Below are positions 24,101 through 63,700 of a stretch of 64,000 bases of DNA, in pieces. The DNA is from Capitulum mitella (taxonomy: Eukaryota > Arthropoda > Thecostraca > Pollicipedomorpha > Pollicipedidae): NCBI GenBank assembly GCA_030062745.1, contig CP099846.1, positions 4,650,001 to 4,714,000 of the forward strand, given 5' to 3'. The translations under genes and the position numbers were made by a program. The number at the start of each line of letters is the position of its first letter. Within the stretch, counting starts at the first letter, position 1. The notes below the pieces were generated by a model, which saw only the letters and a program-made list of their open reading frames with translations, was not told the origin of the DNA and ran no database searches.

Positions 24101-25762
24101 TCTCCCACTATCTTTTTTTCTTCTCTCCCTCCCCCCCCTCGAAAACCCCCCCTTCTTTTCTTTTTCTCCCCCCTCCTGGGGGAGGCGATTTTTTTCCCCC
24201 CTTTCCCCCCCCTGGGGGGAAACCCCCCCCTCTCTCCCCCTAACCCCCCCCGCTGGCGAAGCCGACATGTTCGCCCACTATACCCACCTGCTGGACGAAG
24301 CCGCCCTGTTCGCCCCGTTCGGCGAAGCGCGGAAAGGCCGTGTGAAGGACGTTCAGCATGATGATGGGCGGCACTGAGGCCACGTTCTCCATGCTGGAGT
24401 AGAGGTCCCGCAGCGCAGAGGTCACCGCCTGGCTGTAGCCGCCCTCCGTGCCTGAGGGCAGGCGGCCGGTCAGAGGTCAAACGGCCTCCCCGGAGTCTGC
24501 GGGGAGCAGCCTGGCCGTACCAACCCTACGTGCCTAAGGGCAGATGGCTAGCCAGAACCAGCGAATGGGATGACGTTTCTGTCACAAGCGATGCTCGCAG
24601 CATGCTGTCTGTGCCTGTGGCGTGCCTGTGGACCAATCCATTCAGCCTTAAGCCACTGAACAAACCATCCTAATGCGTATGCCCACGAGTACAACTAAAA
24701 ACAGCATCCCTCCCAAAACCCGCACTAGGGCCGATCCACACCTCAACACAGCGCCAAGGCGGCCAGTTCCGCCTGGTGCCGCGACAGTGTTCCCGAGCGC
24801 CGCCGAGCCGGCCGCTCACCGTAGCTGCTCTTGAACTGGCGCAGCGCCTCGGTGAGCTCCGGCACCGACTTGAGGCACTGAACGGTGGCGTTCATGTAGC
24901 AGGTGTTGCCCAGGTTGGTGAGGCCGGCCGGCATCTCCAGCGCCGTGGCCAGCTCGCTCTCGGTCATGTCCTCGACGAACTTGGTCCGCTCGGCCGGCAC
25001 CTGCGCTATGTCCTCCTCCTTGCTGCCCATCATCAGCAGGGTGGTGCCCTGCCAGCGGCGGCCGTCAGAGGGGCGCGGCAAGGCGGGAGGCTGGGCTCCG
25101 AGGCCCAGTTTGCGCAGCCTCAAGCAAAATGGTTTCCTTAAATGTTTCGCAAAATGCTTTGCAAAAAATAACTTGCCCTCACCTCAGTCAGAAAGGCAAA
25201 AGTGCTCTTTTTTAGATTGCTGTGTTTCATAAGACGATGACATGACTGTGATTATGGGCCTTTCATCAAAATGCAGCATATGCCCTAATGGTATGGTGTG
25301 TTTTTGAAGAGTCAGGCCAAAAACATGCACACGATGGACTGTTTGTTTTGGCATGTGCGGCATCCAAAGGACTTACATCTTTCAGTTTGACATTGTCCCA
25401 GGAGTCCGACTTCAGCGTCATCCCCTTGAGCATGATCTTCTGACGGTCTGGCTGCACGCCCGTCAGTGCAAACAGCTGAGCCCGAAATAGCATCGGCTCC
25501 TCATCCGTGTTCAGCTCCACATCTTTGAACAGCTCCTTGCCCCATTTCACCTTCACTGTGACAAAAATGTAGTTTGCCTGACTGACAGCAGTCACTGCAT
25601 CCATTGCATTTAGAAAAATCTTGAATACACTCCTACTTCACACTGATACAATCATATGTCATGAAGTGATCAGTAAAATGGCATCCCTACAGCTACAATA
25701 AGAACATGAAAAGTAATAGCAGCATGCTGTGGTTTCCTGCACTCACCAGAATAGCTTGGCAT
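21186..25762 (-). CDS. USP14: Ubiquitin carboxyl-terminal hydrolase 14 (proteasome-associated deubiquitinase)
   Basis: USP14 docks on the 26S proteasome and trims ubiquitin from substrates. Nine coding exons were joined by hand: 25747-25762, 25377-25555, 24820-25048, 24288-24451, 23646-23743, 23090-23252, 22458-22583, 21804-22038 and 21186-21514. All have GT/AG borders and the phases close, giving 512 aa (the human protein is about 494). Residues 1 to about 75 are the ubiquitin-like proteasome-binding domain. The catalytic Cys115 lies in GLTNLGNTCYMNA. The His box is GRSSSSGHYVGWV (His430) and is followed by KFDDD and SGGGDWHCAYVLLYGPR. The start in a 16-nt coding exon (MPSYS, donor GGTGAGT) is preferred over the ATG at 25,604 because the latter lies upstream of an acceptor and the MPSYS start matches the family N-terminus. 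An acceptor at 25,801 implies an upstream non-coding exon. The C-terminus is Ala/Ser/Pro-rich and probably disordered. All catalytic residues are present. Confidence 0.95.
23951..24316 (-). repeat. Degenerate copies of the USP14 exon 4 / intron 4 boundary
   Basis: Five degenerate copies of a 30-40 bp unit containing the exon 4 end and its 5' splice site. The shared plus-strand GAAGCCG core is at 24297 (the real exon), 24258, 24088, 24059 (GAAGCTG) and 23973. The copy at 24,078-24,094 repeats the real exon-donor boundary exactly over about 20 nt, so intron 4 carries a second, sequence-identical donor. Confidence 0.75.
24108..24250 (-). repeat. Polypurine/polypyrimidine tract, G-rich in the USP14 transcript
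   Basis: The plus strand is almost entirely C and T, with runs of 6-9 C. The USP14 pre-mRNA therefore has many closely spaced G runs between the true exon 4 donor and its duplicate. The composition suits G-quadruplex or triplex formation; structure is inferred, not shown. Confidence 0.8.
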
Positions 25763-25800
25763 GTTTTCTAAATGTCTTCAGCACACTCCACAATCAGTCT

Positions 25801-27169
25801 CTGAAGGTACAAAGGAAGAGTTCAGGCACATTCACCACATGACAAAAATTATGCCAGAGATTTGTGGCAATCACCTTTTAGAGCAATAAAACACAGGCAA
25901 TAAAGAGCAAAAAATTTCCATACATAATAGTCATATAACAAAGGAACTGTTTGAAACACCATTCTGCCAGACTGCAAAGCATGGAGTGTGCACGCCCAAG
26001 ATGCGCCTCCATTATTGAGAATGCACACCTGGTGTGCCGCTGGGCAAGTTTAGCGCATGCTGGGCACACACTCAATTAGAGCATTACATGCCTGGGAATA
26101 ACTGGCCCTTTTTAATCCAGTCATTCTATTACAGTTCCATCTAGTTCCAGTTCTGCTTCTTAGGCTTTATTTTTGTGGCATAAAAGATTGCTTGTGACTG
26201 ATCAGATTTCTGTGGCCTGCCAAAAAAAGAAGAAATATTGATCACACCCCAAAATTCAATTTTCAAAAGCACACAATGTGATTCTGCAGCCATCTCAAGC
26301 CTACAGGAATCTAAAATGTGTTCATAAAAACTAACAAACACCTCAGAACAGGTACACAGATGCACCATTTCCAATGACTTGCCATCTTCTAATGACTTCC
26401 TCCAAAACAAATCTTACTATTTATGCTAAATTTTTTAATACCAAATCCACCACAGGGAAAAAACTGTCAGTTTAAAAGTTCATTTTTTCATGCCAAAGGA
26501 CATCTTAAGATCACTTAATCAACATCAGAACCAGTAAATGTGCAAGTCAACATAGTTTTCCACAAAAAACTTTGAAACTGGTAATAATTTGGAAACTACT
26601 GAATGCACTAATTCTGACTGGCATTGCTTTTCTTCACAGTTTGTTTGGTACCATGCATTGCTTTCCCTCCTTCAGTGAATTTATTTTTATTTTTCTGACA
26701 GTTTTTTGAGACAGCACATGCTGCGCATACCAGAACATCTTCATGCATGCCAAAACCATTCATTGCATGCCTGGGAATAGCCATGTACATGCCCCAGCTG
26801 GTATAAATTGTCTGGTGCATGCCAACGGGATCTCGTAAAAGCCTGCAATGATTACCAGTCTGACCATTCTGGAGGTAAAATTAATTCCCATAACAAATGG
26901 GCAAAGCAAAATGCACCAAATGCACAAGCAAATGACAATCTGAGATGTGGGACAAGGACCTGACATCTTACACATTACTTTCCATGCTACCACACATAAA
27001 CCAGGCAGCAAAGAGCTGCTGTGTCTGTGGGCAAAACCTAGAGTAGAAAGGTAATCATTTAGAAGTGCACTCTTCCTTTTTTAATTAAGTTTAAAAACCT
27101 ATAACTAATATTACTAACAGATGCTTTGATCTTAATGCTTCATTTTCCCACTAATTAATAGCTTGTATG
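25801..27169. other. CpG-depleted segment, probable 5' UTR intron of USP14
   Basis: AT-rich sequence with very few CpG. A polypyrimidine tract and AG acceptor on the minus strand (exon starts at 25,800) imply that USP14 transcription begins further upstream, so this segment would be intronic. No coding sequence was found. Confidence 0.55.
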
Positions 27170-28095
27170 AAGAATATGCCCTTCCGACTGGTAAATATAA
27201 ACTGTCTACCTATCCCGAAAGAAATGGCCATAACATGGCAGAACAATCACCTGATATTACAACGCACTAAAGAACTTTTGGCACAGCAATCTATGCCTAC
27301 ACGACACTTCCAACACTTCTGGAGGATGACGTGTTCCACGACCCACAATCGATTTTTATAGCGAGGTCACCATGTCGCCCAACGTTTCTCACCAACACAT
27401 CTCCGAATAACCGAAACAAACGCGCCGGGTGATGACTGGCGATTTGGTTATTCGTCCACGATTTAGGGGAGCATTCTTTTCAGAGTAAGCTGTAGTTAGA
27501 GTTGTCAGTGCTGGCACAGCTGACTAATATGGACCTGAAAGCAAGATGTTTGTCACTAAGCTTTTCGCTCACTGAATATCTATAAGAGTTAGCATTAATC
27601 GTAAAATCATTCAAAAAACAAAAAAACAGAATTTGGGTCTAATAAGATTTTTCTTAGTATATTGAAAAAGTAGCACTTTTAATATCCAGGAGATTCTGTG
27701 CCGAGCACAGCTGGCTATTTTAGAAGTTTCCTTTCATATAAGACAGTTTCGGCGCGTGGGTTGCACTGAATGCGCAATCAGATTGCGAGGTAGGGAGTGG
27801 CAATGCCCCGGCGTTTGCGGACATCCGTTGCGACTTCCGATTGTATGTTGATAGATTATTAGCATTAACAACCGATACCGGCAACATTTGGAAACGACCA
27901 ACAAAAAAGTAAGGCGTCGTCGAACATATTTTGGTATGGCAAGTGTGGGAGGAGACAACGCGGTCATTGTGCTAAATGTTGAAAGTGGTGGTTGCAGAAA
28001 GTGATAGAAATGACGTGTCCACTTGAGCTTTCAGTTTCTTCACTTCGGCTTAAGTTCTTCAACGTTCAGGTTTCATGAACAATTACAATACAACT
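27170..28095. promoter_or_regulatory. CpG-rich segment, candidate shared promoter of USP14 and ARPC4
   Basis: A sharp CpG-rich block of about 0.9 kb between CpG-poor flanks, midway between two divergent genes. A plausible minus-strand donor follows position 27,393 (TTG then GTGAGA) and could close a non-coding USP14 exon 1. No equivalent plus-strand donor could be chosen with confidence. Promoter function is inferred from position and composition. Confidence 0.5.
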
Positions 28096-28368
28096 TGTTT
28101 GTGTTGGAACTAAGCAACCATGGAAGTGGAACCATAAAGGGCCTTGGAACACTGTCCACACTGAATGCTAAAATGTAACATTGGGCTGGTGGCATTAACT
28201 GTAAGGAAGGGAGGGAATGACTTGCAAACTGCAACCCCTGAAGTGTTAGCTACTGCACTATTGCCACTTTTTTTTAGCTTGTATCATTTTCTTCAGTTTG
28301 TGCAAATGATGTATAGGTTGATATGTATGTTGCAGTTCCTTTTCATTTGCATGCCACATGTGAATGCA

Positions 28369-28371
<3 letters not shown>

Positions 28372-28414
<43 letters not shown>
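28372..28414. repeat. (AT)n microsatellite
   Basis: About 21 AT units within the presumed first intron of ARPC4. Simple repeat. Confidence 0.97.
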
Positions 28415-28415
<1 letters not shown>

Positions 28416-28539
28416 CTTTGTTGCTAGTAGAAAGATATCAAACAACATTAAAAAGTAAAGTTTGATACATAATTACTTTTATTATTACAGAATTCAGAAT
28501 TACACACAAATTGTGGTCACTGTTCACCTGTGCTCCCTT

Positions 28540-28920
28540 TGGGGAAAGGTAAATGGGGGTTCTGGCCCCCATTTTTTCCTTTCAGGACCCCTTTGGCCCT
28601 TTGGAGAGTTTACAGGATCCTCTGATATGGCTCCTTAGACCATAGCAGTCCCTTTTTGTTGGTATAGGAGGCCCATAGGAGATCCTTTAATGTTATAGGA
28701 GGCTCTCTTGCTACAGGAGATTCTTGAAGCTATAGGATGCCCCCTTGGTATTGCAGGAGGTCCCCTTGATGCTATAGGAGGCCTCTTGAAGCTATAGGAG
28801 ATCCCTGCAATGGTATGCTATGATTAGGTCTCTAGGCCATGGGAGGTGACCTCAGCAGTTTTTGACAGTCTCTGTTTGGTTTAGGAGACTCCCTTGTGGT
28901 GAGGAGGTCCCCTTCCATGG
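28540..28920. repeat. 20-21 bp minisatellite, CpG-poor relative of the 14.5-15.8 kb array
   Basis: Units such as GCTATAGGAGGCCTCTTGA recur every 20-21 bp. Period and consensus resemble the CTGTAGGGGCCCCTGCCGGC array at 14,490-15,800, allowing for CpG loss. It lies upstream of the ARPC4 start-codon exon. Confidence 0.75.
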
Positions 28921-29027
28921 ATCCCCATGGTTGATTCCTGGCTACATTCCTTTATGGTGATATTAAACTTATGTTATTGTTTTGCCAGTTGTTTTGCATG
29001 CAGGGCAGAGCTGGAACTTAACATTGT

Positions 29028-29046
29028 GTAAGTACATCAGACTTAC
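29028..29046. repeat. Small hairpin repeat, copy 1
   Basis: GTAAGT and ACTTAC arms around ACATCAG. A near-identical unit lies at 30,773-30,795. Both flank early ARPC4 exons within introns. Confidence 0.6.
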
Positions 29047-29157
29047 TGTGATACTGTGACTGTGATAAACTTGATGAAAGCCCCATTGAATTTCAAACTT
29101 TTTCAGGAAAGGGATCTGCACCAGCACCTTTGAACATACTGCAAGACACATTGTACA

Positions 29158-32100
29158 ATGGTAAGTAAGTCTTACATTTTCATGTACTTCTTAGCATATG
29201 TTTGACAAAGCTCTCCAAAACTGATTCTGATATGTCCATCCCTTGTAAAGTCTAATGAGTTGACATATTGTATTTTCTTGATTACTAAATGTTAATTATT
29301 ATCAGCTGTTATAGTTGGGTGAGTCATGTTTGCCTTGAGAAATCTGGCTGATTTTACAGACTACAGGCTCAGTTTCCTGTCCACTAAGTTGAAAGGGTCA
29401 AGGTAGGGCATGATGTAGCACTCCATACCCTACCCCTGCACCACCCACCAAGCAAGCACCTCCCCAGTCTCTTGTACTCCTTTGCTGATACACTCTTATT
29501 AATGAGTCCTGCCAGGACTGCTTGCTGCGTCCCCTGCCTCACATTCGGCTGGCGGCCAGCAGCCGGCAGTCATTCTCATACCCAGCGGCTGCACTGTGCA
29601 ATCGACTGCCAGAGGGGGCGACGCGGCTCCCTCCTGCCATATGCAGGAGGGTCGGGAGAGCTTGTATGGCCAGCAAATGATGTGTGTTTTTGCATGGCTG
29701 TTCCACCCTGAGGTTTACCTCCTATTGACAGTGACACTGAAAAGCCACAGCTTGTGTGCAGTGTTGCCAATGCACACTTTTATTTCATGATGAAAATTAT
29801 GGCAGTTGTAAGCCATAATAGGTGATGTTGACAACTTTTTGAGGGAGATGACATTTTTTGTTGCCAGCCTTATAATTGCAGTACAGTATCAGGGCCTGTA
29901 AATTTTCTTTGTTGGCTCCCTAGTTCCTGGCTGTTGATAGTTCTTGACGTTCCAACCAGGGCATATGTAGACATACCAGAATGCTCTCTTAGCAGAAATC
30001 TGGGGTGCTCTATGGGTCAGAACCCATCTCCAAGAATGGACCATTAGTTGAATGATAGAGACACAAATACACTGGTCAGAGACACAAATACACTGGTCTT
30101 AACATGTACCATGGTTGTTGTCACTTTCATCACATTCCCTTTGCTTAGGAGTAAATGTATTCTAGAAGACCTCATCCAAATTTTGGTCTGGATGTTGGTG
30201 ATGTCAAAAATAAAGTATCGTGATTGTGAGGAGCCTCATATGGTGAATCAAGCCATGTGCCTCGAACCTCTTTTTGGAAAGCTTTATGGTGTAAAGGAGG
30301 TTGATGAATTTATCAGTGACCGGGCACCCCTGAAAATCTCTTGCTCACCGCTGACAAGTTTGGCGGTCTGTTTCTGGTTTTGCTAGAGCAGGTTTCTCTC
30401 TTTTTTATTCCCAGTCCAACCTAAACGAACTACCCTTCCTCTGCGTCGGATCTGTCCTTTGAGTTGGATTGCTCCGTGGACAGTTGTTGCCAGCTTGTCA
30501 GCGTGCGGCTTGCCTCGACGCCGAACGTTAACGCCCCGCGTTCTGCCGTAGGCGGCCACCCTGAAGCCGTACCTGACCGCCGTGCGACACACTCTGACCG
30601 CCGCCATGTGCCTGGAGGACTTCTCGTCGCAGGTCGTGGAGAGGCACAATAAGCCGGAGGTGGAAGTCAGGTTCGTAGCTCTGTCGCCGTGTCGCCCGCC
30701 GTCAGGTGGAGACAGCGACATATGGCACGTTTAAATAGCTAAAGTTAACCATTGATGGATGGACAATACTTTGTGTAAGTACATCGGACTTACACTACAT
30801 ACAATAGGACGTGTTCTCCCTTGCGTGCATCGGAACCTTGGATCTGCCGCCAAAAAAATGCACTCTGTAAACATAACACCTGACGCAGACAGCTGCTGAT
30901 TGTCAGATTGGGGCAGGAATTTTAGGCGGCTTCCTGGCGCGGTCGTGTTGGATGTGACGTCGGTGGTCTGTGCGCGCGGCAGGACCAGCAAGGAGCTGCT
31001 GTTGACCCCCGTCATCATCAGCCGTAACGAGAAGGAACGCGTGCTCATCGAGTCGTCCATCAACTCGATCCGCGTCAGCATCGCCATCAAGCAGGCCGAC
31101 GAGATCGAGAAGATCCTCTGCCACAAGTTCATGCGCTTCATGATGATGCGCGCCGAGAACTTCGTCATCTTGCGGCGCAAACCGGTCCAGGTGTGTATGT
31201 TTAGATTGTGTCCGACTGCAGGCCTTATATAGCGACGGTTAGCAGCGCAGCAGAACCTGCGAGTTGCGGCCTGGGCTACCGCACTGTTCCGATAGGTTTT
31301 GTGTGCCTTTGTTAGTATGTTGTAGGTGACGGTATCCGTTTTCGTACTCTAAGTATCATTTATCACTTGCTATGAATAATAATATAATATTATAGTGAAA
31401 AATTGCTCGTTTACCTTAAAAGTTTTTTTGTTCGGTGATATTGCGTTACCAGTGAAGGATATATATGGACATGCGGAAATGTTAAAGAGTATTCCATGGA
31501 ATGGCTGAGTCGCAGCCTTTCGTTGGGAAGCCCAAATGGTGTAAACGGTACAACCAGGTTTCCATATTCAAACTCTAGGGATGATATTGATGTATGGTCA
31601 CGGACAATGGACGAGACGTTTTCGGTGACCTAAGTTCCTTGAAATGGTGTCAGGTTAATATATTTTACATCATTTGTCTCACATTGTGGTTAAGTGTGAC
31701 ACCTAAATTGTCACCTGTGGACTTAAAGAGAGCGCCTTTTTAGGTCGCTTCATGATCGAAAAATCCATCAAGTGTGCAGCGAGCGAGGAATTATTCATAT
31801 CATCTTGATTCATGTCGAATTCGAATCGAACTCATATCATGTGATATAAATCGAGCACGTGACCGAGTGTGGTGTGAGCTGCACGTTACTCATGGTTTGT
31901 GCTTTCCATAGTGGCGCGCCGCTCTCTGGCCTGTACATTACGTTCTGCTATCGGCCAGCACCTCTGTCACGTCCCCCACCACTGCCACGACGTGATGCAC
32001 GCCTCTGCTCGCAGGGGTACGACATCAGCTTCCTGATCACCAACCAGCACACGGAGGCCATGTACAAGCACAAGCTGGTGGACTTCGTCATCACGTTCAT

Positions 32101-32591
32101 GGAGGAAATCGACAAGGAGATTAGCGAGATGAAGCTTGCTGTAAACGCGCGCGCCAGGATATGCGCCGAAGAGTTCCTGAAGCGGGTGAGTCGCACCGAC
32201 CCGGACTCAGGCTCACAGCCGACCACAGACCAGGAGAGATGCAAGCGTCAGGCCGTTAGCAGTGCCATTCGTGCGACAACAAGTTTGTTAAGCGACATTA
32301 AATTGAAAGTATTAAGTAAGGTAAAGCAGTACTTATGTCTGGCGGTTTGAAGTGAAGTATGAAGTTGATTGCAATGCTGCTGCGTTTTCTATATTCCGAT
32401 GCATTTATCTGTTTAAAAGTAAACTATTTCCGGAAGCGTGCTGTATTCAGTTACGGAACAGACACATTTAAGACCGTAGTTCGTGTTGGTTATGTTTTTT
32501 TGACGAAAACAGACGACAGCTTGAACAGTGTTTTGGGCGTGATGGCATAATATATGATCCGTCACCGCACGATGTTTGGTTTCAGTTCTAG
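29158..32591 (+). CDS. ARPC4: Actin-related protein 2/3 complex subunit 4 (p20-Arc)
   Basis: Core subunit of the Arp2/3 complex, which nucleates branched actin filaments; ARPC4 and ARPC2 form its structural backbone. Coding exons are 29158-29160 (ATG only), 30552-30670, 30983-31190, 32015-32185 and 32586-32591 (TTC TAG only). The joined protein is 168 aa, the usual family length, which supports both tiny terminal pieces. Recognisable blocks are [51 protein letters not shown] and YKHKLVDFV, ending EEFLKRF. The ATG closes a 54-nt exon (29107-29160) bounded by a TTTTTCAG acceptor and a GTAAGTAAGT donor, so the rest of that exon is 5' UTR and another non-coding exon lies upstream. Exons 2-5 are certain; the position of the ATG is the best candidate among several. 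Confidence 0.94.
29500..29685 (+). pseudogene. Possible non-LTR retrotransposon reverse transcriptase 3' remnant
   Basis: A plus-strand translation across this stretch contains [16 protein letters not shown], then ALCNRLPEG, then a PPAICRR-like tail. It resembles the C-terminal end common in CR1/jockey-type reverse transcriptases (arginine-rich block, then a WNSLP-like motif). It is short, broken, and CpG-rich within a CpG-poor intron. It may be a recent fragment; the family assignment is tentative. Confidence 0.35.
30773..30795. repeat. Small hairpin repeat, copy 2
   Basis: A perfect 8-bp stem, GTGTAAGT with ACTTACAC, around a 7-nt loop, about 100 nt downstream of ARPC4 exon 30552-30670. 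The core matches the copy at 29,028. Confidence 0.7.
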
Positions 32592-33756
32592 CCGTTTGGC
32601 CGGCCATGCCTGAAGTACCGAACTGCCAAACAGCAAGCTCGGCTTAGCTTCCCAACGTCGACTTCTCCGCAGCGGCCGGCACTGGTTCGGCCTTCTCGCC
32701 CACCGTCGACGGCGATTGGCCGACCCGTGACTCCACCGACGCCGATTGGCTAGTCGAGCGTGCTGCTTGGCCGCGATTGGCTGGCCGGGTCTGACGGCAG
32801 GATCGTGATTGGTGAACCGGCGACGGACCCGGGTTCGATGGCCCCTGATTGACGGCCATGTCGGGTCTTGCCAGCCGGGATTGGTTCGTTTAGCCCGTTC
32901 GCTTATGATGCAGTCGAGATGAGTGCAACAGGACCACAGCCAAGAAGACAGAATACCTTCGGGGCGTACTTGTCATGGTTCGGGAGATAAGTGGCTCGCC
33001 CTTCGCGCAAAATTTGCCTCTCGTCTGCTGCCATCGAGTTCGTGTTGGCTGTTCGATGATTGCAGAGGTCCCGTGACTGTTTTGTAGGGGCGCACTAAGG
33101 GATCAAGGTGGACAGTGACCGCTGCGAACTCGAGTGATTCTTTTATACGACGCTTGCTTCTGTGAAGGTGCAGAGTCCGGTCAGCCATTGCAGGCACGCG
33201 CCGCCTAACCGGTCAACATTGTTATTCGTGCCTTTTGCTTGCTGTTCAATGCGGCCTCCATCCATTTCCCTCGATTCTTTGTATCCTTTGCGTTGAGATG
33301 CCTGGAGTGTCTCATTTGATCAACCTCATTGATTGTATGCCTATTTTTTCTGTTCGTGGTATATAACTGTTACGACGATGAGCCCGCATGTATGGCAGAC
33401 ATGCTGAACGACACTGATACGCGACTGCAGAACCCTAATAGGCCAGTTTGATTGCCTTCTGGGACTAAAATGCTGCATTCTCTGACACTGTCATGTTTCG
33501 GAAGCTGTAGCTTTCGGGGTTTACAGTACCAGTCCCGTAATTGTGGTGTTTTCATGTTCTCCTATCGACATACGTATGCTTCGGAAAAGTCCGTTCTGGC
33601 CCCATACGGAATGATTCTTACAGACACGCGACATCATCTGAATGCGAGCATAGGGATTTGACAAGTATTACCATTCTCTTCATCAAGTCAATGCACAGGA
33701 CATAACAGGAACGGAAGTGCCCGGGCTCCGCGGCGGCGGTCGGCGTTCGGCCAGCG
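32592..33756. other. Convergent intergenic region between ARPC4 and UBOX5
   Basis: The 3' ends of ARPC4 (plus) and UBOX5 (minus) face each other here. No gene and no clear AATAAA for either was found. It contains the CCAAT-box cluster described separately. Confidence 0.6.
32711..32885. promoter_or_regulatory. Cluster of inverted CCAAT boxes
   Basis: Five ATTGG motifs on the plus strand start at 32715, 32745, 32776, 32808 and 32880; a mutated GATTGA lies near 32847. The first four are spaced 30, 31 and 32 bp, close to three helical turns, the spacing typical of NF-Y sites in multi-CCAAT promoters. No gene start is seen nearby, so a degenerate 30-bp tandem repeat is the alternative. Confidence 0.5.
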
Positions 33757-35058: not shown

Positions 35059-36478
35059 CTGGGCCGGGACACCACCCTGTCGGGAGAAACTGGATGAGAT
35101 GTGGCATGCCCAACTGTCTCAAAAACTACGTCCAACCATGAAGTTTGATGGCCAGACGTCACAACGTGAAAAAAATGGCATTCAGTATTTTAAAGTGCCT
35201 TGATTCAGACTCAATATTCACTGGGTTTGTTTTCCTCATGACTCAAAACATCTATCAGTTACTACACCATAGTGATCATGATCATGTCACAAATCACATT
35301 CAGAATATCATCCAAAATACTGTTCACATACCAATGTACAGCTAGGTTTCCATACCGCTTTTTGTGGAAACATTCTTGATCTTAAAAAAGTTCACACAAC
35401 TTGCACAGTAAAAGGGCAATAACAAACCATTTCATTATAGCAGATGTCATACAGGTCTGACTAATTCTCACAAACCAATTATGCCTGTTTCAAGAGGTCA
35501 TGGAAAAACTCCTTTGAGAGGTCTTGCATGACTTCTGTAACATCAATAACACATGACCAGACCTCGAATATAAACTAACTTGAACAGTGTCTGCATCAAA
35601 AGGTACACCAAACAAGGTCATACTGCTCCATTCCTGCATCATGCACAGACTGGAACTTATCAGATTGATCTGACACTTTCCAGGATTTACTATCAATCCT
35701 ACCATTTACCCAGTTTGAGCTGGAATTGGGCACAAACCATTTTTACTCAAGTGATGTTTTCCTCTATAACAGGGTTGTGAGAGATTGCTTGCATGACACA
35801 TTTTCAGTGATATTCAAGACAAACTTGGACTGAAGAATACTGCTGTCACTTGAACATATTTAAGATACATCAAGAGAATAAGACAACAAAAGAGAAAAGC
35901 ACATACAATACAATGGTAGACTTAATAAGGTGACAAGATATTCAGAGGAGCCCTCCTGAATTGGACGTGGGGTTGATCATTTCTAAAATGAGGTGCAAAC
36001 TGTGCCTTAAGTGGAATTTGTGTCTTAAGCACTACTTGCATTCCTGGACCACAAGTCACTTTACACCAAGTACAGGGTAAAAAACAATACACCTGTTCCT
36101 GAAACACTACCAAAAAATGTTTTTCTTCTCATGCCTGGGATATTTGTGAAGCCATGATTAACCTCCCCCCATATGTATCACTGCAAGAATGGTCATACTG
36201 GAAATGAAGGCTGCCTGTCCCCTAGATGCCTTGTGGGTTCACCATCTCATTATGAGTTACATCTTTGTTGCAGGGGCACTACACAGGTCTGAATGCTGCT
36301 ATAGTGATGCTACACATTTCTATGCATGCAGCCAAAACAGAGAAAATGAGGCAATATACAGGACAAAAATGTAACGAAGATGGAAAGGAGAAATTTGCAT
36401 TTGGTTTTCCTTCTGTGTAATTGTTGTAGGATGCTTTTCCCATAATAGAGTACAAACTTCCTCATCTGAACATCAGGC

Positions 36479-37819
36479 TTAACCATATTCCTGGAGGGCT
36501 AGACAGTATAACTGATTCTCTGCATGGGGGTGGATTCAGCCTCCACCCTGAAATCCTGAGAACTACACATCTGATTTCATTGCAACAGGTGGCAATGGAT
36601 TTGCCATGATGTAAACTACATTTTTATAAAAAGAAGTTTTCAAAATTTTGAAAGGATTGGATATTGGGGAAAAAGCAAAAATGGCAATGTTTTTGGACTT
36701 ATTATAGCTCTGCTGTTTATGGACTTATTTCAATAAAATTAGCATGAATCAAGAGATTATAAATGGGACTTTTATTGCTGGCCCACATATTCAACATTTT
36801 GGGAAAATTTATCAGTGTTCTGAGGCTTCCAAAAATGGAAGGATTGGTTTTCCAAATAATGAATTAGTAAAAAAGTTAAAAACACTCATCTTTCACTAAA
36901 CACATTATGCTGTGCAAACACAAATCATATCACATTGTTTGTATAATAGTCAGCATGGGTAGAGCCAGGGACATGAAAAGGGGGAACTGTAATGGCATAT
37001 TTCACTGTGATGGCATATTTCATGTGATGGCTTACATATTTCATCAGGCCAACTTGCAAACTTTGATGTGATGGCACATTTCACTGTGATGACATATTTC
37101 ATGTGATGGCACACATATTTCATCAGGTCATCTTGCAAACTTTGACCTTACAGCACCTTCAATGACCTTAGAGTCACAAAGAATGATCTTGAGTGTATTT
37201 GGTATTATTTGAAAATGTTTCCAATCATCTGAATACATGTTATTTCTAAAATCCCATTTTATGGCTGTGGTGACACAGGGCATGCATACTGGAATTTTAG
37301 GTCATAGCCCCATGAACCCACCTGATATCAATCTGCACCTTGGTATACAAGTAGCAGGCACCCTTCTATGTCATATATATTCTGGGTTTGACATTTGAAA
37401 AAATAGCACCAAAACTATTACTATATGAGCAAATTTTGACTTCTGACCTTTGCTTGCCCTTGTAAAGTAACTTCAGATTAAAAAAATTAAGTTTGTGTGC
37501 TTCTCCAACTATTTACCTATACACCCATACAACAATTTAAGTTCTTTTTAGAAACTACTTTTGGCTGCCATTTTCCTTTTACCTTCAACAGGGCCAAAAA
37601 TGGCCAAAGGTGCCTCGCAAAAACATTGCCTGGTTCTGCCAATGAGCAAAATAAAATTACAACATTCTGTCAAAGTAATCAGAAAGAACAGTTATGATTC
37701 TTGATTCCTGATACTCAAGCAACATCATCAAGTTTCATGAAGCTACATCAAAAACCCTGGCACTGGCAAGCAAAAAACCTGGGGAACAGATTCAGCTCCC
37801 TGCCGGGGAATAGGGTTAA
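36479..37819. mobile_element. TTAA-flanked piggyBac-like short element, copy A
   Basis: TTAA lies at 36479-36482 and 37816-37819. Inward from each TTAA the ends are inverted relatives: left CCATATTCCTGGAGGG, right (reverse complement) CCCTATTCCCCGGCAGGG. TTAA target sites and C-rich ends are hallmarks of the piggyBac superfamily. There is no transposase frame, so it is non-autonomous. It contains a 79-bp tandem duplication at about 36,992-37,150. The left end is CpG-decayed. Confidence 0.6.
36992..37150 (+). repeat. 79-bp tandem duplication
   Basis: Two copies offset by 79 bp, each reading ATTTCACTGTGATG, then CATATTTCATGTGATGG, then CTTGCAAACTTTGA. Internal to the TTAA-flanked element. Confidence 0.85.
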
Positions 37820-37848
37820 ATTCGTCCTTGGGACTGACCAATGTTACC

Positions 37849-38587
37849 TGACTGGTGGCACTCCACAGCCGCCGCAATCAATGATAGCACCTGCCGTCCT
37901 GCTACAACCCGGGGCTAGAACCAATCTTCTGTGCAGGGTCGCTCAAAAGGCTGTCAAAATAAAAACCAATTACGAATACCCTTGTTTATTTCTTAGTGGG
38001 TCATGACACACGGCCTCTTGGGCTCCGGTGTCTCAAGCAAGTAACCTCGTTCCAAGTCTTTTTCGTCAAGCGTCACTCCGTCGCCTGGTTATCCATTGTT
38101 TGTTTATTTGTTTGTGAATTAGGACACACAGCCTCTTGGGCTCCAGTGTCCAAAGTCTTCGGTCAAGTCTTCAATCTCGTCGGGCGACAGTCAGTTGTCG
38201 AGAAAATGTGTGAAGAGAAATCCGCAGGAAATGTCTGGCATGCGCCATTTACGTTACATCGCAATTTGCTTTTGGTCGTGTTCAACAACAGATTTGACTA
38301 CCTTTCTTGGTATCAAACGGCGTTCAGCAACAAGGGCGTGTGGAACGGCGAGCTACACGTAAAAAACGACATTATTGTTGAGAACCGTTTGGTTTTATGA
38401 CGTCACGGAGTTAGTTAGTGTAGTCACACCGCGAACAGCGCTAAGTTGTTTGATGTTTACATTTCTGAACGTCAAAATATCAAAAAGCGCTTGCTGTGGT
38501 ATACATTTCCAGTGTTACGACCAGTTAATACGGCCGGAACAACTACAGGACTGTCCAGGTAACAGTTTCTCGGCTCGCCGCTCTGTG
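37849..38587. promoter_or_regulatory. CpG-rich segment, candidate shared promoter of UBOX5 and CDC26
   Basis: A CpG-dense block of about 0.75 kb between two CpG-depleted segments. It ends at a minus-strand donor candidate (after 37,848) on one side and a strong plus-strand donor (after 38,587, GTG then GTAAGT) on the other. That fits divergent non-coding first exons for UBOX5 and CDC26. Inference from composition and splice motifs. Confidence 0.5.
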
Positions 38588-40950
38588 GTAAGTCGTGAAG
38601 ATGTTTTGTTTTTCACTGGAATGATTCATGAGTGTTGAAAAATTTAGTATATGGGGTCCGCAGTTGGCCCATCAGCCATCCTTTATTACGAGAGAGGCCG
38701 AAGGCTGAATCATGCTTCAACCAATAGAAAACAATCAAACTGAGTGGCTCACCTCAGCTCAGCTTGATTATATTTCTCTTCTTTGGAAGATTGGCATTCT
38801 CTGGGCACAAAATCATTAAATTTTTGTAAAAAGATAAATAAGTTTTTTTTAGTTTTACATTACATTTACAGGGTGTCAGCTTGCATATTCTCCATTTGCA
38901 TAATTATGCCACAAACAGTGCTTTCACACTGTCATACCTGTTTATCCATGAGTCTTTGAACTGCTCAGCAGTGGCAGTGAATTTCTATTGGGGGTGTGCA
39001 TGGTGTCAAAAATTGTGATTTTTGGATGAAAAATGATGAAATGGATTGGTATATTGCCTTTTTACAGAAAAATGTATAAGGGGAAAGAATTGATGCAAGC
39101 AGCAAGAAGCAGACCATGCATCCCTGAAGGCCTGATAGTTAAGACAACATAACATTGACTGGAACGGTCCTGTTAATGTTCTCCCCCTAGTCATTGCCTT
39201 AAATATGTCCCAAATGAATGAACACAGTGCCTTGAAAACTTGTATTTAATTTCCTTGCATCAGTTGTGCACATGCTAACAAAAATTTGGAAACAAGGTCA
39301 TCTTGGGCCACATATTAATGACATCATAAAGGCAACCTGGTTTAGTGATTCTTTGTTCAGTATTACTTTGCTGGGTCATCACCAGTGCTTGTACACTGCA
39401 TGGTGGCTGTGGTTTGCATTGTGTATCAGCATGACTGCATAATTTACCATGGAGCATGTGTGACCTCATGCTGGGTCATCCTAGGTCAAATATGTCCATT
39501 GCTTTTTCCAAGTCCAGTGAAGATGTATTTTAGAAAATTATATTTTGCATTGTCCAGGTCCAGTGAAGATACATTTTAGGAAATGAGCTGAGTTATCTGA
39601 TTTCTGGACACAGCCAGATACGCCATCAATTTTTGTTGTGACAAATTCCACATGCTACTTATATGGTAGATTCCTGCCACAGTGCAACATTTTCATTTTG
39701 TAGTTTAACCTTTAGCAGTTTTATGTCAAGCCTAGCCAAGAAAATGGTGGTGATCATCAGATGCTTCTAATGACTTTTGGTGGGGTATTGGCCTCTGCAA
39801 AACTGTGCAGCATTCTGCAAAAATGTGCAAGCTGGGCCAGATTGGCTTGTAAGGCCACCAATAAATATCATATGCAGGCCACAAGTATCCTTCTGATACT
39901 TCAAGTCTGAAACTGCAGAATATTACAGTGTTGCACATGCATGGCAGTCAGAGCCATTTCTAAACTTAACTTGTTTGCAGAGCTTTCTGAAAATGGATTT
40001 CTAAAAGTTTTGTGTAAATTGGCCAAGGAATATGTATTGCTTGGCATGTAAACCAGATCACTAATGCATGAATGTCGCCTCTATGCTATGTTCAGCTCCC
40101 CAAAAAACTATCCATTTCTGACCATGCTCTGAGAATTCTCCCAGATTCTCTTTCAAGCTGGTAAATGTTCTGGGGTAATTTTCAACAGTTGACTGGCCAA
40201 ATGCAATCAGTATGAGGCTGAGCTTCTTGAGGCATATTACTATGCAAACTTGAGTCTCTGTGTGTTCTTCATTGTGACTAGGCAGCTCTGCAGAAAAGAA
40301 TCATTATTGGGTGTTTGATCTGACCTGTGGCATCACTGGTGGCCAAAAAGTAAAAAATGCATTTACCACACCCCTCCCCACCATCAATGGAAAGTAATGA
40401 AATGTTCCTGAAAGTCATGGCTGGGTTAAATCATCAGTGTGGCCTGGTGCTCAAGCAGCCAGACAGCAGAGTCCTGCCTGAAGAAGGCACTGAGTTTAAA
40501 TCCCACAACAAGCATCTGTTCAACATTCAGCTTTGGCCCACATCCAGAGGGGTCAGCTGGTCATGGAGCGGCCGTGACGATAAAGATCTTCCAGTGCCAT
40601 TTGGTTTGGCACATGGACCAAAATTACTCCATATTTGGGAATGCTTAGGTGGCAGGGTCATGGTCCAGCAACAAGCTTGGCTTAGCATGGACTCTGGTCC
40701 CAAAGCCTCCCATTTTAGCATGTTCAGGCTGAATTTATGGAAAGAGAAAATGGAAAATGGAAACAGTTGTGATGCATGGTATCAGAATCAGACAGCCTCT
40801 TTGTATGCTTTGTATGTTTGAGGTATGCTCTCTAGCTTTTCACCTAGGTGTATTGGATACCAGGTAAACTCTGTAACTATAAGTGATGTGACATAGAATT
40901 ACCCGGAAGGAAGACCAAATAGCAGGTCATCTGAAATGGGATGAAGTGTA
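38588..40950. other. CpG-depleted segment, probable first intron of CDC26
   Basis: About 2.3 kb nearly free of CpG, downstream of the candidate donor at 38,588. The 154-codon plus-strand frame at 40,357-40,821 matches no family I know and is not counted as a gene. Confidence 0.5.
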
Positions 40951-42173
40951 TTAACCCGCGCACGACCGTCGGTCCGTCTCGAACATGGGCGACTGGGGAG
41001 GGGAGCAGTTGACTGCCCCCTCTAACTCACGAACGGTTGGTCGCACGATAAAAATAAGCATACCGTTGGAAAACTTGTGACGAGTAGAGCTCGAAACTGG
41101 CCTCATTTTTAGTTTTAGATAACATGTAAGCCAATTTACGCCCTATATATGTTTTCTCATAGCCGACTGCATGAGACCGAGAAATGGCCTGAATCTCAAG
41201 GGCTGTGACTAATAACGCTTAGGTAAAGGCACCAGCGCACAAGTAAAGGTCCGCGGATGCCGATACACTTCTAATTTCCCGGGACCTGTTCAATGTATAC
41301 GCCGAAACGTTGAGTTAAAGACACCGCAATTCTCCCGCCAGCTGTCAGTGTGCGCCGCTGCCGTATGCGGTACCAAATTGATGGGAACTAATTTTGGCGT
41401 TCCTTCACTTTCGCGAAAAAAGACGATCTGTGTCAATTTTATTGATCTTTGTGGTTCTTGTGATGGTTTCTCATGCTTAAACTTTGGAAAAATTCATTAG
41501 TTACCAATCTACGAAGTTGGCGGAGCCTTATTCGCGAGAGCCTGTTTATTTCCAAAATATGCTACTTTTTCAAACTTTTTGAGGTGCATAGTGTTACTTA
41601 CGTCTGTGCAAGCTAGTTCTGCCATTTTCTACTCATTTTGAGTAATTCATCGTCGATTTTGACGGTGGTACATTTTGGCCCACTACAGTTATTCGTGACC
41701 TGACCTCAGGTCATTGGCTGGAAGTCACTGATACTTTGCCCAATGACGGCAACTAGATGTCTGCTTCATCCACACTAAAAATGCTATGGAATATTCCGTC
41801 AGTTTCCGAAAAAAACGGCGATATGTCTTAAAAATGGGCTTGACCTTAGGTCAATGACCCGGAAAATTCCGAAAAATCTGAGATAGCAGATTTGTTGCAT
41901 CTATCACGATGACTAATCCCTGGAAGTATTATTGAGATATCTTGTTTTGCAAAAAAGTTAGAGGGCGCTGAACTTTTTTAGACATAGGTCTGTTTGACCT
42001 GACCTAGGTCAGGCACCTGACGTGACCTGAGGTCAAAATTTTGACACAAGATGTAAAATTGATGGAGCAAAAGGTACTCAAAGTTTCGTGTCTCTGTGTT
42101 TGTTCGTTCTCTCGCAATCCCAGAAAAACCTAAGGGGGGGCAGTCAACTGCCCCCCAGTGGGGGACGGGTTAA
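40951..42173. mobile_element. TTAA-flanked piggyBac-like short element, copy B
   Basis: TTAA lies at 40951-40954 and 42170-42173. Ends start CCCG in inverted orientation, and a 16-bp block, GCAGTTGACTGCCCCC, is present near both ends in opposite orientation. The left end has about 36 bp extra. Length between TTAAs is 1,215 bp. No transposase. CpG-rich, unlike the neighbouring intron, so probably a young insertion. It contains many AGGTCA/TGACCT hexamers, densest at about 41,695-41,720 and 41,995-42,040. Confidence 0.72.
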
Positions 42174-42371
42174 GGGTAAAACACCCTCATTGTTACGTGT
42201 TGTGTTCCCTCCTTTGCCTTCACTGCAACAATACTTGGATGCCTTCAGCAGCACTTGTACGCGAACCTGACTTTACCTTGAGCCATTACAGGCGAACAAG
42301 TCAAGACAGGAGATACACTGCCCTCCCGTGTTGATTTGTTGCGCAGGTCAAATGAGACTCGTCCTCCGACG

Positions 42372-42984: not shown

Positions 42985-43383
42985 ATGAAGTCGTCGCTGG
43001 CGTTCGAGCTGCTGGCGTACCTGCACGGCTGGTATACGGCCGGCTACGTGCTGCTGACGCTGGTGCTGCTGCTCTGGAAGCGCTCCGTGCTGCCGTATCC
43101 GGCCGTGAACCTGGCCTCGGAGGTGGCGCTGGCGCTGCTGCTGGCCGCAGCCGAGGCCGCCCGGCTCCTGTTGTCGCGCCGCGGCAACCTGACGCAGCGG
43201 GCGCTGCCGCTGGCGCTGGCCGTGGCGCTGACGGCGCCGGCCGTGCTCGCCGTCTGCTACTTCCTGCTCTGGCAGACGTACGTGCTGCGGCTGGAGGTGG
43301 TGCTCTGCGCCACTCAGCTGGCGTTCATGGCGGCCGAGACGGTGTGCGCCGTCACCTGTATCGTGGCCTTCGCCCGGGAGTAG
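42985..43383 (+). CDS. TMEM216: Transmembrane protein 216 (ciliary transition-zone protein)
   Basis: TMEM216 is a tetraspan membrane protein of the ciliary transition-zone (MKS) complex, mutated in Joubert and Meckel syndromes in humans. The 132-aa product has four hydrophobic segments (about residues 15-31, 42-62, 72-94 and 100-128). Family motifs are LHGWY near the start, KRSVLPYPAVNL, GNLTQRALPL and LLWQTYVLRLEVVL. A related paralogue such as TMEM80 has the same fold, but the LPYP, GNL-QR and QTYVLRLEV blocks favour TMEM216. There is a single coding exon. The ATG at 42,985 gives the expected N-terminus. AATAAA at 43,962 follows a 3' UTR of about 580 nt. The coding sequence is very GC-rich. 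Confidence 0.88.
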   Translation: MKSSLAFELLAYLHGWYTAGYVLLTLVLLLWKRSVLPYPAVNLASEVALALLLAAAEAARLLLSRRGNLTQRALPLALAVALTAPAVLAVCYFLLWQTYVLRLEVVLCATQLAFMAAETVCAVTCIVAFARE

Positions 43384-49892: not shown

Positions 49893-59761
<9,869 letters not shown>

Positions 59762-59769
59762 GTTTTAAC

Positions 59770-60715
59770 TTCAATCCGTCCTGGGGCAAGCACCCAATAA
59801 AATTCTGAGGAAACTCGCGTTGCAAGCGAGGGCACAGTTAAATAAGTAAGAGTTTTACGAGGCACCACAACTTAACAGTGTCAGTTCAATTTTAACGAGA
59901 CCTCCCGAACCCAGAACCAAGTGCCTTCCTCAGTATTTGACTTTCGTAAAGGTCAAGAGTGAACGAGGCGAACGGGGTATCCAAGGCTGAGAATTTACTC
60001 CGTTCCGAAAACACGAAGGTTGGTGCATTTTATAAGTTTGGTACTTTTCATCAATGACGTTTTTGCAAATGTTTTTCAAGGAGGAACAAAGAAATGAGTG
60101 AAGAATGGCATTCCATCTGAACGAAAATGAGAAGGTAATAAATACAGATTCATCTGGTTGCAAAGATTGCCTGTATTGCGACATGAGAACTGACGGTCCT
60201 ATAATGTATTTCCGAAGTTGACGTGGTACTTTTGACCGTTTCAGCTAGCAATTTTAGCAACTTTAGTTTTTGCTAGCGATCTAAAATATTAAAATCTGTT
60301 TGCTGCGAACAGAAGTGCAATACGAAATCAACTTGAAATTCATTATCAGTTACATTATATGTCAGCACCTTTCTCTTCGGGGGCCGCTGTTCTTGGACAC
60401 CTTCCAAGTTACGGTGGATTCTTGCTTGTCGCGTCGTAAATGTATCAGGTCGACGAAAGCTTGTTGTTGTCCGTTATTGTTCGTTTTCTTTTTTCATGGC
60501 ACGAAGTGCTGTTAGTTTCACAATGGTCAGGTTATTGTTCGCATTACATAAATCTTAAAAAGTTTTAGTAGGATTATGATTAGTTGAAAATTGCTGTTTG
60601 TGGCCCTGGGATAAGTGAGACGTGCTCTGACGTGTGTTTGGGCTGCGATACGTTTACCTATTCCAGACAAGGAAGTAGGTAACAGTTTTCGTCATGCCGT
60701 CGCGTAAAAAATAGG
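59770..60715. promoter_or_regulatory. CpG-containing segment upstream of GOT1, candidate divergent promoter
   Basis: This segment lies just upstream of the GOT1 start and is richer in CpG than the sequence beyond 60,720. By analogy with the two other triads it may serve GOT1 and a plus-strand gene. ATGCCGTCGC at 60,694-60,703 followed by GTAAAA could be a first coding exon (Met-Pro-Ser), but it is unsupported by any recognised downstream exon. Confidence 0.35.
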
Positions 60716-63700
60716 TATGTGTGGGTTTTATTGTTTGGTCTTTGTTGTCCATTGCATATTGCATAGCTGGATTTTGCTCAGAGACCCATAGTTATCGCCT
60801 GAGGAGTGTTTTTGGTGCTGTTTCACTGGTGTATACTGAGATGGAACACATTTCCATCGAAAGTTTCCTTTGGTTCATGGAACAGTCCATGGTCACAAAC
60901 AGTCTGTTGTAAGGGAACTTACTGGCTCAGCAACAAAACCAGTCCCTATATAGGCCAGGACATTGTAAGTACAGAATATTCTTGGTCAGTCAGCTGTGAA
61001 GTCATTCACTGCTTGTTGGTTGGTGATTGGGGCTTAGGGGCATTTGGTTGGCTTTGTAATCTAGTTGGTGTGATATTGAGACATGAAGTAAAACATGTGT
61101 TTTGTATTTGGTATAGTTGCAGGTTTTTATGGTTGCAGTAGCTATTTTGCAATAGGTTTAATAAGTAGTGTGTATATAGAATATATGTAATCAATTTGTT
61201 AGAGGCGTAGCCAAATTAGGTGAATTATTTTAGAAATGTTTCCCTCCCTCATTTGATGTGGCTTGAACGAACAGCCACAAGGTGCAGATGCTTGGTTGTA
61301 TTGGCAGCACAGGTATTCTGCTTCAAGGCCACAGTTGCAGCATGAATACAACTGTGCTATACTATCATATTCAGGTGATGCTTCATTAATGTACTTGTTG
61401 TGGAGGTTGTGATTATTAGGTTTTTGAAGTAACATGCCATTGCAAGTAAGCTATATTTTTTGCATTATTGCATTTTTTGCATCTTTTGGCATTACAGTAT
61501 TCAGTATGCATTAGGTTAAAGTTGCATCCAAATTTATCCTCAAAATTTGTGACAGTCATAGGTAGAAGGTAACACAAGGTAAGGTAAGGTAAGGTAAGGT
61601 AACACATGCCCTATTAAAAACTGTGTGGCCTTATGCTTGCATGCATGAGGTGCATGCAGCCTGCAGGCTTTTGACCTCACCTCCCTGGGACAAAAATTAC
61701 CTAGCAGGTGATGTCAGACAGTCCAATTTTGTCATGTTGTATGCTACAGAACCTGTACTGTCAGACAGGCTGCAATTTTGGGACTGCCTTTGGGATGTGC
61801 TAGGAAAATTACAGTGCAGAAACTTGGGGACAAATGGGAAGTTTTCAAGAACTGATAGGGACATGTCCCTGCCTGGCTGACTGGTGGTTGCAGCCATACC
61901 AATATGTATTGGTTTTTACCTCCATTTGAAAATACTTTGGGCCTGAAAAAGGGGTTTTGCCTGGTCTTTTCAAACCTTTGTCATTACCTGGTGTATGCCT
62001 GCACAGCACAATGGAATGACAGGTCACAGCTTGTAAGTTTTGGGACATCACTGATATTTCAGCTGGTGACCCCTGTGCTAGTTTTGCGGCTATGCTGCAG
62101 GTCTTCTAGTAATAAGATTTCATTGGCCTTGCTGAATTCAGTTCTGATTATATGGTTTTCAAAGTGTGGCAATATATGTTCATGTGGTATAGACAGATTT
62201 ACACATCATTGTGATGAAGATTGTGAATTCAGTGAAAGTCTTAAGGCAAGGCTGTCATGGCTTTGTTTGCTACTTTCATGCAGTGACCACTTGTTTTTCT
62301 GGTCTGTTCATGTGAGGTGGTCCATGATTTCCATTCTGTACTTATTTTGTGGGTAGTCTGTTCATTGAGGCAACTACTGTGGTGAGTACTTTGTTCATTG
62401 TTATTGTTCATGTTGTTTGATACCTTTAATTTGGTACCTTTAATTTGATACTTTTGGGGACCAACAGCATTGTATTACTGTATGCATGCTGTGGTTGGAT
62501 CTAAGGGAATATTGATTTAACTACAGGCAGAGGTTATCAGGTCCTGTCAAAGAACACCATTATCTTGAGGAAATCATTGGCAGGAGATTGTATTTGATGG
62601 GGGGACAAACAAAATTTTGAGGCCTCCTGGTCATGAGAGGCTACCTTTCCTATGAAGGACTCCTCATCTCTATAAAGTCCATGTTGCCCAAAAACTTTCA
62701 TCATGAGGCCATCTAATGGGAGTGGTATTTTGGCTGACTGGACTTGGTCGGCTGACAATTCCTAGTCATGCATTTTCATGCATTAACCTGGCTCACAAAA
62801 TAGACCATGCACTGAGGGAATCAGCCAAAAAGAAAGACTAGCACAGAGCTTCAGTAAAAGATGGTTCATCTACTGGTTCCGGTCAAGACCCGCCACAGTT
62901 GTGACTGAGACGCATATACATTTTGTGACCCTGTTGAGTTAGAACAAGGTTGAACTAGGTCAAAGGTTTGAAGCCCTTAAGTCAGGGATTTCGGTGTCTG
63001 TGGTAGATTTGTCACCTTGCCATTGATTAGACACAAAACATCATAACATCCCATAACATCGATGATGTGAAATCCTTTCTGCCTCCTAACACCTGTGTGC
63101 CCTAAGACCTTTTTCATGAGTCATTTAAACACCAGGCAATGAGCACGGCTGCCATGTTAGCCTGATATGTGGTGAGAACTTTTGTTCATGATAAGAAGGG
63201 TACCTGTTTTGATGACAAAGGGCCATGGTAGCACAAACTGTGTAGAAAGAAGATAAGGGTTGTACTTATGGGTTAGGAGATACTTTGTGATGCATGTTGT
63301 GTTCATAAAGGCAACAAGCCATATGTGTATTCTGAAAGTTCAGATGAGATCATCGTGGGTCCAACTGGACTAGGCAACCCTTGTCAAGTAGATTCTTACC
63401 ATATATTGATGCAAAATCGAACAGCCTTATCAGCGATTCAGAATCGGATTAGGATCGATTCTGATTCGCTGACTCATTTCGCGAATCAGAATCAGAATTG
63501 GTTCTCTGACAACTGTGGATCAGAATCAGAATCAGAACTACCTTTTGGCTCAAGAATCAGCATTGCATCGATTTGCAGAGTTTGTGGGAAATGATTCCTG
63601 ATTCAGTTCCCAAATTCTGAGTCATTTAAATGCATGCTTTCTTTACCTTATAAATGAGACAATTTACTACTATAAATTGCAAAATTAAACATTAATTCTA

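Follow-up and report, generated by a model that had tools for sequence, protein, structure and literature searches.

Why are CpG dinucleotides nearly absent from the first kilobases of certain genes, and present both in the DNA between those genes and in their later introns? The question arises in a 64-kb stretch of the Capitulum mitella genome (contig CP099846.1, positions 4,650,001 to 4,714,000; hereafter the window), where three divergent gene pairs, USP14/ARPC4, UBOX5/CDC26 and GOT1 with a plus-strand unit, each enclose a core flanked by CpG-poor arms. An earlier note on this DNA had described nine such stretches and read them as a 5'-biased germline methylation zone beside a protected shared promoter, an interpretation that the present analysis partly supports. 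The CpG-poor gene-start arms are real and strong. Judged by their composition, they very probably record, as mutations, a lasting methylation of CpG in the germline that covered the first 1.7 to ~6 kb of transcribed genes and took in their introns.

CpG-specific loss in six gene-start arms

CpG observed/expected (o/e) was computed in 500-bp windows and followed by segmentation with a two-state hidden Markov model (HMM; CpG versus TpG/CpA). The six long CpG-poor segments are the arms of Table 1, represented at GOT1 by 54475-57666, which continues with breaks as far as 53668; segment 28067-30314 is broken at 29526-29653, and 38706-40932 has a single 3-CpG break. Short low-CpG segments are numerous elsewhere, the longest outside the gene-start zones measuring 266 bp, far shorter than the arms. 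Together, the six arms (14,744 bp) contain 55 CpG versus 582 expected, a deficit of 527, and every arm lies far under the lowest of its 500 mononucleotide shuffles, as exemplified by the UBOX5 arm with 6 CpG observed, 93 expected and a shuffle minimum of 72. Segmentation and shuffles bear out eight of the nine stretches described earlier to within a few hundred bases, the exception being the third core.

The GC content of the arms is 0.40, versus 0.54 for all 87 windows outside them and 0.50 for the window overall. Comparison with 29 GC-matched 500-bp windows outside the arms reveals CpG odds of 0.09 in the arms versus 1.00 outside, with GpC odds showing no depletion (1.12 versus 1.08). The loss is therefore not a GC effect, and the difference on which the earlier note depended persists after GC correction. 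TpG/CpA odds are raised (1.51 versus 1.11): the arms contain 2,663 TpG+CpA versus 1,778 expected, or 1,974 using the outside odds, a surplus that equals or exceeds the number of CpG missing. The earlier note had proposed measuring CpG o/e and TpG+CpA excess, and the two give a CpG-specific loss with TpG/CpA gain, as would result from germline deamination of 5-methylcytosine. CpG depletion with TpG/CpA excess and intact GpC is the footprint of invertebrate gene-body methylation. DNA outside genes is spared, and so are transposons, as seen at 1-13.8 kb (o/e 1.07), at 43.4-49.8 kb (1.00), at 51.15-52.1 kb in a GOT1 intron (0.77) and in a TTAA-flanked element (0.98), with the caveat that a relative of this element located inside an arm is not spared.

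Two further signals were set aside. TpG is commoner than CpA on the coding strand in 7/7 arm stretches; this asymmetry tracks the general G+T skew, and composition-corrected odds run the opposite way in 5/6 arms. A dip at 14.0-15.7 kb (o/e 0.41-0.61) is GC-rich, repeat-like sequence in which GpC is low too, and is not an arm.

The genes were placed by tblastn with human protein queries, giving USP14 (-), ARPC4 (+), CDC26 (+), TMEM216 (+) and GOT1 (-), and UBOX5 was placed by Pfam. USP14, ARPC4, CDC26 and GOT1 match human proteins and UBOX5 matches Pfam, which may suit conserved, broadly expressed methylation targets; ARPC4 is presumably also similar to the fly protein. The cores, ~0.8-1.0 kb in length, lie between the divergent genes as the earlier note had placed them, and are CpG-normal rather than CpG-rich, since their counts about equal expectation (Table 1). 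The third is shorter than the 57.7-60.7 kb originally assigned to it: with GOT1 coding exon 1 at 59,761-59,653, the shared core spans 59.72-60.72 kb, and the remainder belongs to exon 1 and intron 1 of GOT1. Of the upward sign switches of G+T skew in the window, the two strongest occur at 27,421 and at 59,671 (the largest), each within a core or next to one.

Of the five named divergent genes, four have their start codon away from the core: those of USP14 (25762) and ARPC4 (29158) are candidates within the arms, and those of UBOX5 (35058) and CDC26 (42372) lie beyond them. It thus appears that in these four genes a non-coding first exon must lie closer to the core, as predicted earlier; GOT1 does not require one, as its start codon is in exon 1.

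Zone borders and CpG-normal downstream introns

Downstream of the arms, the sequence is CpG-normal, in agreement with the earlier description of a CpG return. Across 11 downstream intron stretches of USP14, ARPC4 and GOT1 (4,728 bp), 320 CpG are observed versus 313 expected, a sum that omits USP14 intron 3 (12 versus 18.9), GOT1 intron 2 (16 versus 19.5) and GOT1 51,150-52,100 (42 versus 55); with these three included, the total is 390 versus ~406. The last of them, at 51.15-52.1 kb (o/e 0.77), contains a transposase that we take to be mariner-like. Coding-strand G+T skew, a strand asymmetry taken to reflect germline transcription, is positive in 7/7 arm stretches (0.04 to 0.19) and amounts to 0.14 across the same 11 downstream stretches. 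As the skew persists in CpG-normal introns, germline transcription appears to continue where CpG loss stops or nearly stops.

Most arm starts lie near candidate splice donors. A strong donor-like site on the correct strand lies within 120 bp of the start in 4/6 arms, at 9 bp (USP14), 118 bp (CDC26), 60 bp (GOT1) and 5 bp (plus-strand unit), an agreement equalled by 60/10,000 random placements; among these donors, homology backs that of GOT1 only. The far ends fall near the first sizeable coding exon. The USP14 arm runs 43 bp into exon 3, and the GOT1 arm stops 364 bp after exon 2 has begun; the ARPC4 and UBOX5 arms stop short of their exons, which start at 30,552 and 35,076, by 238 bp and ~89 bp, respectively. 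This rule was framed post hoc and passes over two small exons, the candidate start-codon exons of USP14 and ARPC4. The CDC26 arm was not judged against it because the arm stops where the TTAA-flanked element begins; the 173 bp following that element in intron 1 have an o/e of 0.60. As the earlier note held, the arms largely cover first introns, those of USP14 and ARPC4 also containing a small exon with a candidate start codon, as well as intron 2. Their lengths range from 1.7 to ~6 kb in total at GOT1, the longest zone, exceeding the 1.5-2.5 kb to which the zone had been confined.

A pair of related elements offers a comparison between a CpG-normal and a CpG-poor copy. A stricter blastn search gave one 26-bp arm/outside match with a CpG change, and a looser search yielded the TTAA-flanked element of CDC26 intron 1 and its diverged relative in the GOT1 arm. 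The two align end to end, with a local score of 443 versus a maximum of 311 in 20 shuffles; seven other arm stretches reach at most 296. The GOT1-arm relative has CpG at 4/53 CpG sites of the CDC26 copy and GpC at 18/52, and has 9 CpG within the alignment, 6 of them in the first 80 bp. Since the copy in CDC26 intron 1 is CpG-normal and only the one lying in the GOT1 arm is short of CpG, the depletion seems to have arisen in place; either copy may be the closer to the ancestor, so the comparison shows CpG scarcity relative to a sister copy and not the exact path.

Arm composition and neighbouring features

Table 1. Cores, CpG-poor arms and associated features of the window (CpG counts are observed versus expected; "." denotes no assigned strand).
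Feature	Positions	Strand	Description
USP14 arm	25512..27260	-	Intron 1, candidate start-codon exon, intron 2 and first 43 bp of exon 3; 9 CpG vs 65
USP14/ARPC4 core	27263..28063	.	Putative bidirectional promoter; 40 CpG vs 37; G+T skew sign flips across it
ARPC4 arm	28067..30314	+	13 CpG vs 101, 10/13 within GC-rich fragment 29526-29653
UBOX5 (RNF37) arm	35165..37801	-	6 CpG vs 93
UBOX5/CDC26 core	37804..38699	.	Putative bidirectional promoter; 49 CpG vs 48
CDC26 arm (intron 1)	38706..40932	+	7 CpG vs 92
TTAA-flanked inserted element	40951..42175	.	In CDC26 intron 1; 60 CpG vs 61; ends TTAACCCG...CGGGTTAA
GOT1 arm, distal	53668..57666	-	Intron 1, exon 2 (54032-53844) and start of intron 2; two short CpG-holding breaks
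Diverged relative of the 40951-42175 element	54392..55805	.	In GOT1 arm; CpG-poor except first 80 bp
Small CpG island	57677..57972	.	GOT1 intron 1; 296 bp; 20 CpG vs 15
GOT1 arm, proximal	58005..59713	-	Intron 1 plus part of exon 1, CpG-poor with CpG-holding interruptions
GOT1 coding exon 1	59653..59761	-	tblastn E 3e-05; donor GTAAGA
GOT1/plus-strand-unit core	59717..60718	.	Putative bidirectional promoter; 48 CpG vs 42
Plus-strand unit arm	60720..63410	+	13 CpG vs 111; donor-like AATAG/GTATGT at 60714

The GOT1 zone has several interruptions. Its distal part contains 7 CpG versus 121 expected at 54475-57666, with breaks at 53934-53986 and 54392-54469 and exon 2 placed by tblastn. The 57.7-59.7 kb region, composed of exon 1 and intron 1, carries an inverted-repeat element and an internal CpG island. 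Its CpG-poor pieces lie at 58,005-58,686 and 59,357-59,713, and o/e runs from 0.20 (58005-58686) through 0.91 (58689-58937) and 0.75 (the element stretch) to 0.07 (59369-59653). The element (58947-59360) is composed of 147-nt inverted repeats at 58947-59093 and 59214-59360, 95% alike, around CCTAA repeats; the two inverted copies differ at 7/145 compared positions, one of which is a CpG-to-TpG change. CpG-holding breaks in the arms may be insertions, such as 58,947-59,360 and 29,526-29,653 in the ARPC4 arm, the one-frame translation of which presumably resembles a retrotransposon protein tail. The island at 57677-57972 shows no sign change of G+T skew across it and has two CCAAT-type boxes, read by eye; it is possibly an alternative promoter or an insertion. 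CCTAA arrays occur in intron 1 at 58230-58351 and 59092-59199, which we take to be the arthropod telomere-type TTAGG repeat, and the second sits between the 147-nt inverted repeats, placing a telomere-type array inside a mobile-element-like unit.

The candidate start-codon exon of USP14 (MPSYS/V, 25762-25747, donor GTGAGT) is the better of two candidates from a scan that assumed phase 1; exon 3 was placed by tblastn, and an additional low-CpG stretch lies at 25,150-25,388. The corresponding ARPC4 exon, 29107-29160, ends in ATG/GTAAGT (ATG 29,158), the only one of five ATG/GT sites found with a full GTAAGT, and the following exon spans 30552-30671. UBOX5 is supported by DUF5918 (E 3e-21) and U-box (6e-16), with a RING match under its cut-off; its coding exon starts at ~35076, a splice site read from sequence. 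This exon (33700-35076, ~1.4 kb) lies directly beside the 38% GC arm, and its 500-bp windows (33501-35000) reach 81% GC with CpG o/e of 1.07-1.24. The UBOX5 arm also contains two tandem 79-bp copies, 91% alike, at 36988-37145. The CDC26 coding exon runs from 42347 (tblastn; splice site read from sequence). A TMEM216-like gene follows on the same strand as one uninterrupted exon at 42985-43383, ~400 bp past the CDC26 stop, and may share the CDC26 transcript.

The plus-strand unit is apparent from ~60.4 kb as a coding-strand G+T skew of +0.13. Skew and donor-like site agree with the plus-strand gene predicted after 60.7 kb; no Pfam family was found in six frames of 60-64 kb (E limit 0.1). Its arm breaks up near the window end, where 63412-63487 is CpG-rich (7 CpG, o/e 2.0) with GAATC/GATTC-type motifs. 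Six-frame scans for other genes at 1-4.8 (E 0.1), 4.8-9.6, 9.6-14.4, 14.4-19.2 and 43.4-48.2 kb (E 0.01) likewise returned no Pfam families; the Pfam scans left out 19.2-33.5, 38.3-43.4 and 48.2-60 kb.

Probable germline methylation of gene starts

In the explanation we favour, methylated cytosine in the germline would deaminate to T, so that CpG becomes TpG or CpA and is lost, and the common cores of the three divergent pairs would remain unmethylated and retain their CpG. The methylated zone would open at or just past the first exon, span the first long intron (plus a short second one in USP14 and ARPC4) and close near the first sizeable coding exon. Past this zone, germline transcription would go on with methylation absent; the methyltransferase would be recruited to early-elongation chromatin.

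Several observations weigh against this account. The nearest strong donor-like sites lie 482 and 353 bp from the ARPC4 and UBOX5 arm starts. The zone end is not clean, as USP14 intron 3 has an o/e of 0.64 and GOT1 52100-52800, well past the zone, 0.63. Exons in or at the zone are only partly depleted, with o/e of 0.34 in GOT1 exon 2 (the single exon >100 bp lying wholly inside a zone), 0.65 in USP14 exon 3 and 0.79 in GOT1 exon 1, and partial depletion of exons is also expected from coding constraint. Between UBOX5 and CDC26, the core shows only a weak skew switch (0.108 at 37,980, 88th percentile), and five non-core places have peaks of 0.105-0.128, similar to or above it. TMEM216, an independent or co-transcribed gene, has no CpG-poor arm of its own. 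Between the two element copies, the alignment is poor, and of the 53 CpG sites only 6 read TG/CA in the arm copy, with 24 in gaps and the rest showing other changes. Within-gene patterns differ among arthropods, and in Blattella most methylation starts only at exon four (PMC7343188). The account is built on five named divergent genes and one plus-strand unit in a single 64-kb window.

Given methylation, the extent of the zone could instead be set by distance or time from the transcription start site (TSS), with the match to the first sizeable exon arising by chance; this concerns the rule alone and leaves the methylation reading intact, and we regard it as a plausible but somewhat doubtful alternative. 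Four arms (USP14, ARPC4, UBOX5 and CDC26) measure 1.7-2.7 kb, methylation in Nasonia drops under the untranslated-region level past 2 kb (PMC3794928), and the post hoc exon rule passes over two start-codon exons. A fixed distance sits poorly with the GOT1 zone, which extends ~6 kb to exon 2, unless the internal island at 57.7 kb is a second TSS restarting the count, and with the ends of all four judgeable arms, which keep to between 238 bp ahead of and 364 bp beyond the point where the first sizeable coding exon starts.

It is improbable that whole gene bodies are germline-methylated, with selection or GC-biased gene conversion preserving or restoring CpG downstream. Biased conversion would be in keeping with the high GC content of much downstream sequence (up to 0.81), compared with 0.40 in the arms, and the mild depletion in USP14 intron 3 and GOT1 52100-52800 points the same way. 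However, downstream introns stand at expectation, or nearly so with the omitted stretches counted, a GC-poor one in ARPC4 (31191-32011, GC 0.44) has an o/e of 1.10, and the 29 GC-matched outside windows show no loss. Still less credible is the idea that the arms belong to a class of AT-rich or repeat-derived sequence whose lack of CpG stems from composition or origin rather than methylation: the low GC of the arms would suit it, but the depletion survives composition correction with GpC intact and TpG/CpA raised, borders occur on both sides of three cores, and the element resident in an arm has a CpG-normal relative elsewhere. An assembly or consensus artefact is negligible, given six separate stretches, intact flanking genes and consistent strand skew.

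What might confine methylation to gene starts is a more speculative matter. Germline methylation may here track neither exons nor the whole transcribed body but a chromatin state that opens at the first donor site, lasts until an internal exon of some size is reached and is off thereafter despite transcription, a specific form of the proposal that we consider unlikely, if worth stating. In mammals, H3K79me2 is a first-intron-wide elongation mark. If the mark covered the whole gene body, downstream introns should have lost CpG too, and they have not, or hardly, making a 5'-restricted recruiting mark more likely. Methylated, expressed genes of the Colorado potato beetle have an H3K36me3 peak at the TSS plus a 3' rise, so a 5'-restricted mark may exist; in that beetle, though, methylation is highest in exons and is described as the mirror image of H3K36me3 (PMC12576374).

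Methylation of conserved, steadily expressed genes is common in arthropods and 5'-weighted in several species (PMC7343188; PMC3794928; PMC6097596), with exon enrichment reported as ancestral (Lewis et al. 2020, PMC7343188). The window would fit this 5'-biased gene methylation, known from some arthropods mainly on exons, and departs from its exon-only feature: the gene-start pattern looks like an intron-spanning variant. In Nasonia vitripennis, methylation is all but confined to the first kilobase of coding exons. Both systems would share the 5' part of genes as target, of steadily expressed ones in Nasonia, and the sparing of intergenic DNA and nearly all transposable elements, whereas Nasonia marks coding exons (11.9% exonic versus 0.7% intronic CpG) and the footprint here covers kilobases of first intron (PMC3794928). 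Similarly, methylation in Daphnia rises after the first exon and falls after the first few, peaking at exons 2-4, but is near zero in introns (PMC6097596). By footprint, 5' introns here are instead the longest CpG-depleted stretches of the window, and depletion is stronger in them than in zone exons (0.34-0.79), though coding constraint hides methylation in exons.

The 5' confinement resembles that of P. citri and N. vespilloides, where methylation lies largely within the first three exons, and the absent exon preference resembles that of the crustaceans Parhyale and Armadillidium, where the exon-intron difference is small; the relevant parts of that survey report neither both traits jointly nor a sharply bounded CpG desert (PMC7343188). 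In Nicrophorus, the authors of the genome do not regard the second-exon peak as a robust trend (PMC4700941). Gene bodies are targeted, introns included, in the marbled crayfish, but exons, introns and 3'-untranslated regions are affected there (PMC6172769), and the copepod Eurytemora carolleeae shows gene-body targeting with CpG depletion across whole coding sequences (PMC11706791); here, only the 5' zone is affected. Among the matches listed in the literature search (titles, with subscription papers and figures outside its scope), no first-intron CpG desert was found in an arthropod, and the search on barnacle methylation yielded no barnacle paper.

Within the same genes, transcription is suggested along the full length and CpG loss is confined to the first kilobases, which would make transcription separable from methylation. 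What recruits invertebrate gene-body methylation would thereby become testable from sequence alone in any assembled genome, and CpG deserts around a CpG-normal core could aid the prediction of promoters, non-coding first exons and gene direction in similar unannotated genomes.

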